Shown: in pieces, positions 44,401-50,400 of the stretch
How positions within the stretch are numbered: the stretch's first letter is position 1
Layout of the letters: the number at the start of each line of letters is the position of its first letter
Origin: Ypsolopha sequella
Taxonomy: Eukaryota > Arthropoda > Insecta > Lepidoptera > Ypsolophidae
Direction of reading: 5' to 3'
Length of the DNA: 64,000 nucleotides
Assembly (NCBI GenBank): GCA_934047225.1
Contig: OW204012.1
Coordinates: 248,001 to 312,000, forward strand
Made by a program: the position numbers and the translations under genes
Notes under the pieces: model-generated
What the model was told of the DNA's origin: nothing
Seen by the model: the letters and a program-made list of their open reading frames with translations, nothing else
Databases searched by the model: none

Positions 44401-47400
44401 GCCGGTCGCGGTGATCACTATGTCCACTTGCCGGATCACCTGAAAACGAAAGGGGGGGGGGGAGGGGGTCAGAGGTGTCAGGTCACAGAACTCTAATTAA
44501 TTTTGCTTTTGATTAATCATAATTTAGTAGAAATTAACAAACTCAATCTTAATATTTATTGTCAAATCTATTTTTTTAAGAAAGTCATCTGACTACTTGA
44601 TGGTCGGCCATGATAAACCGGGCGCGTGAAAAAGAGTTAATTATAATAATATTCTGCCGAAATAAACTATATCTTAATAAATAATTTATCCGCCTTGTGG
44701 AACTGTTACTGCGAGGTAGATAAACGAGGGGTTTACAGTCATTGGAACAATCAACACTCGTGACTCTTTCTTTTCACCGACGACTTTAAAGTGCCAAAAT
44801 GACAGGGGTCGGTCTTTGTAGCACAAACACACGCTTTCAGAGCATGCAGGTTCACTTCAACTGTGTTTTTTTCATCGTCAGCAATTGGTAAGTATAAAAA
44901 ATCAAATATTATGCGCATAAATACCGAATAACTCATTCGTAATAAATAACTCATTGATTATAAAATAGCACCAACACAAAGGATTCAAACCCGGATCTAA
45001 GTTGATTGTTGCTTTGCAAAAAGCAAGATAAAAACGGTAAAACATCGTCAAAAGTAAGATAAAAACGGTAAAACATCGTCAAAAGCAAGATAAAAACGGT
45101 AAAACATCGTCAAAAGCAAGATAAAAACGGTAAAACATCGTCAAAAGCAAGATAAAAACGGTAAAACATCGTCAAAAGCAAGATAAAAACGGTAAAACAT
45201 CGTCAAAAGCAAGATAAAAACGGTAAAACATCGTCAAAAGCAAGATAATAACGGTAAAACATCGTCAAAAGCAAGATAAAAACGGTAAAACATCGTCAAA
45301 AGCAAGATAAAAACGGTAAAACATCGTCAAAAGCAAGATAAAAACGGTAAAACATCGTCAAAAGACGCCTTTTCAATCCCGTCTCGAACAATCATCAAAT
45401 TCCTTAGGGACTACACAAAATAAAATCCAAGCAATAAGCTGAGAATGGCTCTCTCTATGTGAACGATTAAACATCATCGCTAGTAACGCCCTCTAGCACG
45501 TTTATTGGTGGCTCCATATATTTAGTTAAATTATACACTACTTCGCTAGTGGCGCTCTCTATAGTAATAAATAACAGACATGAGTAGGTGACACTCTCTA
45601 TATATTTAGACCTATATTACAGGATAATGTACATGTCATGGGCAGATTTTTAAGTATGAAATCGAAAATCTTTCACCAAAAGTCAAAAATAGGTGCGGCG
45701 AGCGAAGCGAGAAGGAGCGTGTTTAGATTTACATGTAAATAAATCTGGGGAGCCGAGCGAAGCGGAGCGAGCGACCCTCCTAATTTTAACAGAAATACGA
45801 TATGCCAAAGCAGATAATGATATGCCCAATTCTACGATGTCCCGACGATATAAACAACGACCTTTATCCATTTAAAACCTATTTCAATTAAAATGTAAAA
45901 TAATGCAAACACTTAATTTTACAACTCTGAACCCGTCCATGGCCGCCTGTAGAGCACATATCGGATCTATTTAATTTATATTGTTTATTGTACTCACTTC
46001 ATTTAATTTTACAACTCTGAACCCGTCCATGGCCGCCTGTAGAGCACATATCGGATCTATTTAATTTATATTGTTTATTGTACTCACTTCATTTAATTTT
46101 ACAACTCTGAACCCGTCCATAGCCGCCTGTAGAGCACATATCGGATCTATTTAATTTATATTGTTTATTGTACTCACTTCATTTAATTTTACAACTCTGA
46201 ACCCGTCCATAGCCGCCTGTAGAGCACATATCGGATCTATTCAATTTATATTGTTTATTGTACTCACTTCATTTAATTTTACAACTCGGAACCCGTCCAT
46301 GACCGCCTGTAGAGCGCATATCGGATCTATTTAATTTATATTGTTTATTGTACTCACTTCATTTAATTTTACAACTCTGAACCCGTCCATGGCCGCCTGT
46401 AGAGCACATATCGGATCTATTTAATTTATATTGTTTATTGTACTCACTTCATTTAATTTTACAACTCTGAACCCGTCCATAGCCGCCTGTAGAGCACATA
46501 TCGGATCTATTCAATTTATATTGTTTATTGTACTCACTTCATTTAATTTTACAACTCGGAACCCGTCCATGACCGCCTGTAGAGCACATATCGGATCTAT
46601 TTAATTTATATTGTTTATTGTACTCACTTAATTTAATTTTACAACTCTGAACCCGTCCATGGCCGCCTGTAGAGCACATATCGGATCTATTCAATTTATA
46701 TTGTTTATTGTACTCACTTAATTTAATTTTACAACTCTGAACCCGTCCATGGCCGCCTGTAGAGCACATATCGGATCTATTTAATTTATATTGTTTATTG
46801 TACTCACTTCATTTAATTTTACAACTCTGAACCCGTCCATAGCCGCCTGTAGAGCACATATCGGATCTATTCAATTTATATTGTTTATTGTACTCACTTA
46901 ATTTAATTTTACAACTCTGAACCCGTCCATGGCCGCCTGTAGAGCACATATCGGATCTATTTTATTTATATTGTTTATTGTACTCACTTAATTTAATTTT
47001 ACAACTCTGAACCCGTCCATGGCCGCCTGTAGAGCACATATCGGATCTATTCAATTTATATTGTTTATTGTACTCACTTCATTTAATTTTACAACTCGGA
47101 ACCCGTCCATGACCGCCTGTAGAGCGCATATCGGATCTATTTAATTTATATTGTTTATTGTACTCACTTAATTTAATTTTACAACTCTGAACCCGTCCAT
47201 GGCCGCCTGTAGAGCACATATCGGATCTATTTAATATATATTGTTTATTGTACTCACTTAATTTAATTTTACAACTCGGAACCCGTCCATGGCCGCCTGT
47301 AGAGCACATATCGGATCTATTCAATTTATATTGTTTATTGTACTCACTTAATTTAATTTTACAACTCTGAACCCGTCCATAGCCGCCTGTAGAGCACATA

Positions 47401-50400
47401 TCGGATCTATTCAATTTATATTGTTTATTGTACTCACTTAATTTAATTTTACAACTCTGAACCCGTCCATGGCCGCCTGTAGAGCGCATATCGGATCTAT
47501 TTAATATATATTGTTTATTGTACTCACTTAATTTAATTTTACAACTCTGAACCCGTCCATAGCCGCCTGTAGAGCACATATCGGATCTATTCAATTTATA
47601 TTGTTTATTGTACTCACTTAATTTAATTTTACAACTCTGAACCCGTCCATGGCCGCCTGTAGAGCACATATCGGATCTATTTTATTTATATTGTTTATTG
47701 TACTCACTTCATTTAATTTTACAACTCGGAACCCGTCCATGGCCGCCTGTAGAGCACATATCGGATCTATTTAATTTATATTGTTTATTGTACACACTTC
47801 ATTTAATTTTACAACTCTGAACCCGTCCATGGCCGCCTGTAGAGCACATATCGGATCTATTTAATTTATATTGTTTATTGTACTCACTTCATTTAATTTT
47901 ACAACTCTGAACCCGTCCATGGCCGCCTGTAGAGCGCATATCGGATCTATTTTATTTATATTGTTTATTGTACTCACTTCATTTAATTTTACAACTCGGA
48001 ACCCGTCCATGGCCGCCTGTAGAGCACATATCGGATCTATTTAATTTATATTGTTTATTGTACTCACTTCATTTAATTTTACAACTCTGAACCCGTCCAT
48101 GGCCGCCTGTAGAGCACATATCGGATCTATTTAATTTATATTGTTTATTGTACTCACTTCATTTAATTTTACAACTCGGAACCCGTCCATGGCCGCCTGT
48201 AGAGCACATATCGGATCTATTTAATTTATATTGTTTATTGTACTCACTTCATTTAATTTTACAACTCTGAACCCGTCCATGGCCGCCTGTAGAGCACATA
48301 TCGGATCTATTTAATTTATATTGTTTATTGTACTCACTTCATTTAATTTTACAACTCTGAACCCGTCCATGGCCGCCTGTAGAGCGCATATCGGATCTAT
48401 TTTATTTATATTGTTTATTGTACTCACTTCATTTAATTTTACAACTCTGAACCCGTCCATGGCCGCCTGTAGAGCACATATCGGATCTATTTCTGTCACG
48501 TACACCTGAAACATTATTTAATTATAAAATTTATTGGTTAGCCAAGTAGATATAATAATTAAAAGAGATATTCCCCTTAAATTCGTGCTGTTATTTATGC
48601 TAGCAGATAGATTATGTCTGGGCGTTTTCGCCAAAAACGAAATATTTTATTTAACCGTGTACGACATTGGAACGGGTGAAATTCCATACAACGTTACCAT
48701 GGTTTTATTACGAAATCTTTGAGAAAAATCTACAATTCCATACTTATTCTATGAATAAAGCATCACTTTATGAGCAAGCACGGCCATTGCCAAAAAAATC
48801 TGTAAATTTCCCGATTGTTGTGTGGAAGGTGTCGTTTGTTATGGTACTTTTATTTTCAGTAACTGTGACCAATATACCACACATAGTCGCTACAATATCA
48901 ATAACAAAGAAAGCTTTTAACAACAAAAAGTACGTTTTTAAAGCTCGCATATCGCGGAATATTAGGAAACGTCTTATAAAAGTGTACGTGTGTAGCCTAA
49001 GCATGAAAACATCTTCGTATAGTTACGTTTCAAACTACATCAAAATCGTATGTAATCTGGTAAACTGCTCCAAGCGGACAGTAGCGGAACTAACAGCTAC
49101 GTATGGCAACCTAAGTTTAGTTTCAAACTATACGGAGATGTTTTCATGATTAGGCTGCTGGAGCATCGCTCGATGGATGTGAAACGTGGGCCATGATAAC
49201 TTACTACGTAATTATACTGAGTCTATGCTATGACAAAACGTGACAGAAAAAGATTGGAAGCTTTTGAAATGTGGTGTTAGCGAAGATTGGAAAGAATTAG
49301 TTGGATGGAAAAAAAGAGCAATGAAGAGGTCCTGCAGATTGTACACGAAAAGCGAGTTTTGATGAAGAGCATAATTAAAAGAAGGGGAAGATGTTGTGAC
49401 ATCTGGTACGACACCACAATGTTGTTACATCTGGTACGACACCACAATGTTGTGACATCTGGTACGACACCACAATTTTATCAAAAACATCATTAAAGGA
49501 AAAGTGGAGGAGAAAGAGGACATTCATGGATCAGATGAAAGCAAAAATAAATGTTCTATCAAGAAGTTAAAGAAAAGGCGGAGTGCAGAAGTGAATGGAG
49601 AAGACTTCACCTACGAGAGCACAGATCTTAAATTAAATTGAAAAAATTGTGATCAATATTAATAAGGGAAGAAGCAAATTATTACTATTAATTACTAATT
49701 ACTATAATCGTAAAGAATACTACAATCGATGCGTTTTAAGTGATTTGAGCTATAAAAGAAAAACAAAACGAAAATAAAACGTAATTGATATGGAATTGAT
49801 ACGTACAAAACAAAGTACGAAAACGCCTTATGAGTCTGACATCTATGGCCGAATAGCTATACTAATTGAACTTTAAACATTTCCATAGATGGCGCTGGTG
49901 CTACGTATTACCTTATGTTGAAGAGATGGAGGGAAACATCGAGTCATGAATTTCATGTGACATATCTCACTCTGCTGCCGCTATGGCCACCTAGATGGCG
50001 CTGGCAACGCTTGTTGTAGTGTGGACATTATTATAGGTATATTGTTGTGCAACATATACCTACTCTACAGACAAAGTTATACTCTCTCTGGAACTTATGG
50101 GAGGGATGTACTCACAACACAGCCCAGAGCTTTGAGCGCCTGACAGCACCCCTTCCCCACCTCCCCATACCCGCAGACCACGGCCTGCTTCCCTCCGAAC
50201 ATGAGGTCCGTGCTGCGCTTCAGTGCGTCTATTATACTCTCCCTGGAACAAATAATGTAGGTACTGTCACATCCGGACCGGATCAAATAACTACGGATCG
50301 ACACAGTATAAATATAGTAAACAGTAGTGAACGTGCGCCGAATTACCGAGTCAAATACCAACGCGCGCCACTAAAGCTTTAGAGCTGTCGCTAACTCACT

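Follow-up and report, generated by a model that had tools for sequence, protein, structure and literature searches.

How is a coding exon spliced when its own end, together with its donor site, stands repeated many times within the intron that follows? This question is raised by a 64,000-nucleotide stretch of the moth Ypsolopha sequella (GenBank assembly GCA_934047225.1, contig OW204012.1, positions 248,001 to 312,000; hereafter the window, in whose own coordinates all positions are given). In this window, the AHCYL gene lies on the minus strand, and the intron behind its exon 7 carries an array of 90-bp units made of exon end and donor. One exon thereby stands against 26 near-identical donors at 90-nt steps, with an acceptor-like competitor in each copy. 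We consider it likely that the array is a "mirage" minisatellite, which was born locally at the exon edge and is mostly ignored by splicing.

Structure and location of the array

Exon 7 (48428-48505, minus strand) is 78 nt long, encodes 26 aa in frame 0 with phase 0 at both ends, and is flanked by TTTCAG and GTGAGT. Tandem Repeats Finder (TRF) placed the array at 45913-48492, with a period of 90, 28.7 copies, 97% matches and a score of 4838. When the array is read on the minus strand of AHCYL, the repeat unit consists of the last 63 nt of the exon and the first 27 nt of the intron. The unit alignment thus confirmed the proposal of a first-pass annotation of this DNA that each unit joins the exon end to GTGAGT and 21 further intron bases, and this exact unit structure supports its view that the array was seeded from the functional exon plus its donor. 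The annotation had counted 28 units; the precise count is 27 full copies and one partial copy besides the exon. The native unit, which we call unit 0, occupies 48401-48490 (exon part 48428-48490, intron part 48401-48427) and is followed by the 27 full copies at 45971-48400, each with 63 nt of exon end and 27 nt of intron. The truncated 28th copy (45913-45970) stops inside the exon part, after AAATTAA, and is followed by GTGTTTGCATTATTTTACATT. The intron that holds the array is 3988 nt long and also contains a 31-bp array of 11 copies.

When a 141-bp query was compared with the 866.8-Mb genome, all 29 reported matches were located at the array locus, the match counts being lower bounds. These 29 of 29 matches at one locus argue that the array was made locally and is no dispersed repeat; on the same matches, a dispersed repeat or a transposon-borne satellite was rejected. 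A tandem exon duplication of the kind that gives mutually exclusive exons was likewise rejected, because the units are without the first 15 nt of the exon and without the native 3' splice site.

Variation among the copies

The exon part is the same as the real exon in only five of the 27 copies, and TAA replaces the last Glu codon in ten. Five sites of the exon part are variable, with three synonymous changes, one Ala-to-Val change and one Glu-to-stop change, as the first-pass annotation had described. We found no clear sign of selection on the copies, the probability of at least three synonymous changes among five being 0.07. In addition, five of 63 sites were variable in the exon part vs four of 27 in the intron part, so that variation in the exon part was not significantly lower (Fisher p = 0.44). 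With ten of the 27 copies stop-ended and exon-part variation not significantly rarer, the copies look unconstrained.

The 28 units, the exon's own included, showed 16 variant combinations. By exact unit types among these 28 units, no higher-order repeat structure was found other than one two-unit block that recurs. The mean unit identity was 0.970-0.975 at lags of 1-3 units vs 0.963-0.969 at lags of 9-12 units, a difference that gives no more than a hint of turnover within the array cluster.

Splice signals in the copies

The donor GTGAGT is kept in 26 of the 27 copies, the exception being unit 7 with GTGTGT, and the ladder of about 26 consensus donors proposed earlier was therefore borne out. 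The same annotation had held that the copies are without a 3' splice site. This is true of the native one, but the acceptor-like motif CTACAG (as CTACAG/G) is present in all 27 copies, 39 nt ahead of the donor. Every copy also has AATAAA right after the donor.

We scored acceptors and donors with simple matrices, the outputs of which are motif scores and not measures of splice use. CTACAG scored 1.26 or 1.77 in the exon itself and in copies 1-3, corresponding to the 94th-95th percentile of the AGs on the minus strand of the window. The native acceptor of exon 7 scored -1.68 (81st percentile). Considering that two of the eight real AHCYL acceptors are as low as -1.68, a low score does not exclude an acceptor. 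For the donors, 16 of the 27 copies had the native score of 8.13, the ten stop-bearing copies had 7.54, and unit 7 had 5.15.

CTACAG and GTGAGT bracket a 39-nt stretch of 13 codons in the frame of the gene in 26 of the 27 copies, and these copies may accordingly be regarded as potential in-frame mini-exons, as predicted from the motifs. Ten of the 27 stretches are stop-ended and 17 are without a stop. If exon 7 were extended by read-through as far as the copy 1 donor, no stop would intervene and 30 aa would be added; any longer extension would run into a TAA where copy 1 ends.

The AHCYL gene and its homologues

When exons 6 and 7 were joined, they matched the NAD-binding domain PF00670, and their best structure matches were adenosylhomocysteinase 3 (E 2e-34) and putative adenosylhomocysteinase 2 (E 3e-34), whose chains we take to be AHCYL proteins. 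The best named insect homologues are labelled adenosylhomocysteinase-like 1. These domain, structure and homologue matches agree with the earlier identification of the gene as AHCYL. Family searches of the genome recovered a single locus each for AHCYL and AHCY, the former on this contig and the latter on a different one.

Nine AHCYL exons were mapped on the minus strand, with their ends placed by eye at AG and GT. The first has its 3' end at 57927, and its 5' end lies beyond 58055. It is followed by coding exons at 54405-54543, 53474-53644 and 51155-51287, by exon 6 at 50116-50242, which precedes the exon of the array, and by exon 7. Downstream of the array, exon 8 (44260-44439), which has a pyrimidine-rich acceptor, and the next exon (43491-43658) were both recognized by family matches, and the last coding exon (41284-41442) contains the stop codon. 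The nine exons join in frame to encode a core of 427 aa, and the gene looks intact. This core showed 93.9-96.9% identity over 421-427 aligned aa to eleven proteins of butterflies and moths (P0003 and P0005-P0014). The closest of the eleven was P0012 from Plutella xylostella (96.9% over 421 aa), which was also the sister of the core in a quick tree with a support of 0.936; a Manduca protein (P0021) showed 95.0% identity over 403 aa. On this one protein, the moth would probably stand near Plutella. The identity to the eleven proteins makes a functional gene under constraint probable. As a separate observation, the acceptor edge of exon 6 (50232-50249) is echoed at 50077-50094, 155 bp downstream, in 17 of 18 bases; with an E value of 0.25 for the window, this is possibly due to chance.

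Homologues were also searched for repeated exon ends. Of 8,000 scored proteins, 7,998 passed, 120 of which were listed, and together with the exon's own peptide they made a set of 121. Internal exact repeats of at least 8 aa were found in two of the 120 listed homologues, P0002 and P0004. In P0002, a product of Plutella xylostella, the exon that matches 44260-44439 has its final 50 aa in triplicate, arranged in tandem, and the exon that matches 53474-53644 has its 27-aa end duplicated. Neither of these repeats was found in P0012, which is also named Plutella. The repeats of P0002, known from the protein only, may stem from a faulty annotation or assembly. P0004, from a 51-kb contig of Diaphorina, looks rearranged, with a long repeated block in which the later half of exon 7 is contained. 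Of the 121 proteins, 100 contain the EIDPI motif of exon 7 once, 21 have it only in a changed form, and none contains it twice, indicating that P0002 has a single exon 7.

Known repeats at exon-intron boundaries

The first-pass annotation knew of no description of such arrays for this family. The kind itself has been described, and two such systems appear in the literature, namely the "mirages" of lancelets (PMC3087553, PMC3902484) and a variable number tandem repeat (VNTR) of the human CBS gene (PMC2630376). The moth array is thus confirmed to be striking in size and of a kind already known.

Lancelet mirages are minisatellite-like tandem duplications of exon-intron boundaries in Adh3 and in the globin genes BflGb6 and BflGb9 (PMC3087553). 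They show length instability and concerted evolution, and regular splicing was reported to be undisturbed (PMC3087553, PMC3902484). Haplotypes of BflGb6 with six and with three mirage units are described (PMC3087553), and the paper on PGBD5 mentions TnC as well and compares the repeats of PGBD5 itself to mirages (PMC3902484). Like these mirages, the unit of the moth array spans an exon-intron boundary, as it does in all 27 full copies, and carries splice signals. On the other hand, the moth array is located in a moth gene and on the donor side, has a 90-bp unit, and comprises 27 full extra copies compared with six and three. Accordingly, the array belongs to the known mirage kind, and its copy number, its moth host and its latent acceptor are its own features. 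No insect mirage was found in the titles and the starts of abstracts of the open-licence literature, among the matches listed.

The CBS VNTR is a 31-bp repeat, c.1444_1467+7(16_21), present 16-21 times, whose unit joins 24 nt of exon end to 7 nt of intron (PMC2630376), and a table places it at "exon 13-intron 13" (PMC1395315). Considering that this nomenclature gives 24 exon nucleotides and 7 intron nucleotides, the donor is repeated there as well. The CBS VNTR thus resembles the moth array in having exon end and donor in its unit, but it has a shorter unit, is human, and is known for copy-number polymorphism. According to the title of a 2001 paper by Lievers, this VNTR reportedly affects enzyme activity. 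A third comparison concerns human segmental duplications, where internal tandem repeats located at the borders of exons and introns can give rise to new introns and new splice forms (PMC2812944). Both these and the moth array are minisatellites at exon edges, but the human repeats have a unit of about 30 bp and about four repeats on average, and they are located in primate gene duplicates.

Origin and splicing of the array

Based on the unit variants, the seed junction and the lack of clear constraint on the exon part, we read the array as a minisatellite that grew from the exon edge. In this model, a local duplication would have begun inside the exon and taken in 27 nt of the adjoining intron, and slippage or unequal exchange would have raised the number of copies to about 28. 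The distal copy ends in AAATTAA, and the same 7-mer is present near the end of the exon and at the end of the consensus unit; the truncated copy may have been trimmed as if by a 32-bp deletion between two AAATTAA sites. In the normal transcript, 48505-48428 is most likely spliced to 44439-44260, in which case the whole array would be removed with the 3988-nt intron. Normal splicing is expected to dominate, because the native acceptor is retained and the native donor is the one closest to the real exon. We infer that the extra donors, the acceptor-like sites and the AATAAA motifs would be decoys that are mainly ignored. In favour of this account are the undisturbed splicing reported for mirages of lancelets, the probably functional gene, the unconstrained look of the copies and the minisatellite richness of the window. 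The model predicts that Plutella and other close relatives have an unexpanded intron, the first 27 nt of which would run straight into GTGTTTGCATTATTTTACATT.

Several points weigh against this account. The seed junction shares two bases only (the exon ends in GAA and the consensus unit in TAA), giving thin evidence for the birth event. Furthermore, by these simple matrices, 16 of the 27 array donors match the native donor, and the cryptic CTACAG acceptor of the exon and of copies 1-3 outscores the native one. With equal donors and a higher-scoring cryptic acceptor, quiet splicing is not assured by the sequence.

An explanation that otherwise overlaps with a mirage is an ordinary minisatellite that covers the exon by chance, the splice edge having had no role in its birth or growth, and we give this an even chance. 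The window is rich in minisatellites. Ten arrays with a period of at least 10, at least four copies and a TRF score of at least 100 cover 21.8% of the 64-kb window vs 3.0% of 200 kb sampled elsewhere (20 stretches of 10 kb from contigs C1-C20), where 15 of the 20 stretches were without any array. A chance overlap with an exon is therefore easier here, and none of the nine other arrays touches the AHCYL exons mapped in the window, the exons of other genes being unmapped. A subtelomeric cause of this richness was not shown: when three 8-kb stretches close to other contig starts were examined, two contained arrays of at least four copies, and none was found in C29:1-4000 or in an interior stretch of C29. 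Against a chance overlap, another array of the window comes to within about 40 nt of the acceptor of the last AHCYL exon, and one Plutella protein, P0002, repeats two other exon ends of AHCYL. Taken together, these two cases indicate that exon edges may be over-represented among array sites.

The array might instead be an active splicing device. In this case, its donors and internal acceptors would be used appreciably, yielding AHCYL isoforms with 30 or 13 additional aa, or unproductive transcripts that cut AHCYL output proportionally to copy number. The in-frame 39-nt stretches between acceptor-like motif and donor, most of them without a stop, are consistent with such a role, as is the open extension of exon 7 to the donor of copy 1. 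Moreover, alternative splicing can result from tandem repeats located at exon-intron boundaries of human genes (PMC2812944). We nevertheless regard an active device as unlikely, because no protein of the set has the EIDPI motif twice, the later part of exon 7 is repeated only in P0004, within a large rearrangement, and the lancelet mirages are reported to be neutral for splicing. Although tandem arrays are prone to assembly error, a misassembly that made the length or the very existence of the array is highly improbable, considering the 16 variant combinations with a single repeated two-unit block, the flanks in order with the gene, and an assembly of 151 contigs, 20 sampled ones of which measure 25-34 Mb and the array-bearing one 16.4 Mb.

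Returning to the mirage model, the exon-end copies of P0002 would be a hint that exon-edge amplification has recurred in AHCYL. Speculatively, AHCYL could be a recurrent site of such amplification in the lineage of this moth and Plutella, with the copies, each supplying a donor together with an acceptor that is latent and in frame, serving as a nursery for in-frame mini-exons and introns; 26 ready mini-exons of 39 nt would stand behind exon 7 here, and two other exon ends would already be treated as coding in one Plutella annotation. We consider this quite doubtful.

Whatever its origin, the array offers a natural system in which the weight of exon definition, donor proximity and copy number in splice-site choice could be tested. 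The same system could serve to test the idea, raised for lancelet globins, that repeats of this type turn into new introns. In addition, the stop-bearing exon copies, ten of 27, lie beside a conserved exon, and unequal exchange could carry the stop into the gene.

Other features of the window

The second array near an AHCYL exon has a 17-bp unit, CTACTGCTAACTGATAA on the minus strand, and occupies 41483-42458. The minus strand of the window has 88 CTAAC motifs, and 56 of them lie within this array, the last one about 47 nt from the acceptor of the last exon; CTAAC resembles a branch point. Farther away, open frames with matches to Pao-type retrotransposons are located at 6637-11895 on the minus strand, with Peptidase_A17 and RVT_1 in 8449-11895 and with DUF5641 and a weak integrase match in 6637-7515. 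Finally, a frame of 487 aa at 27162-28625 on the minus strand has a C1 match slightly below the curated cut-off and a Rubicon homology domain (PF13901, E 2e-58).

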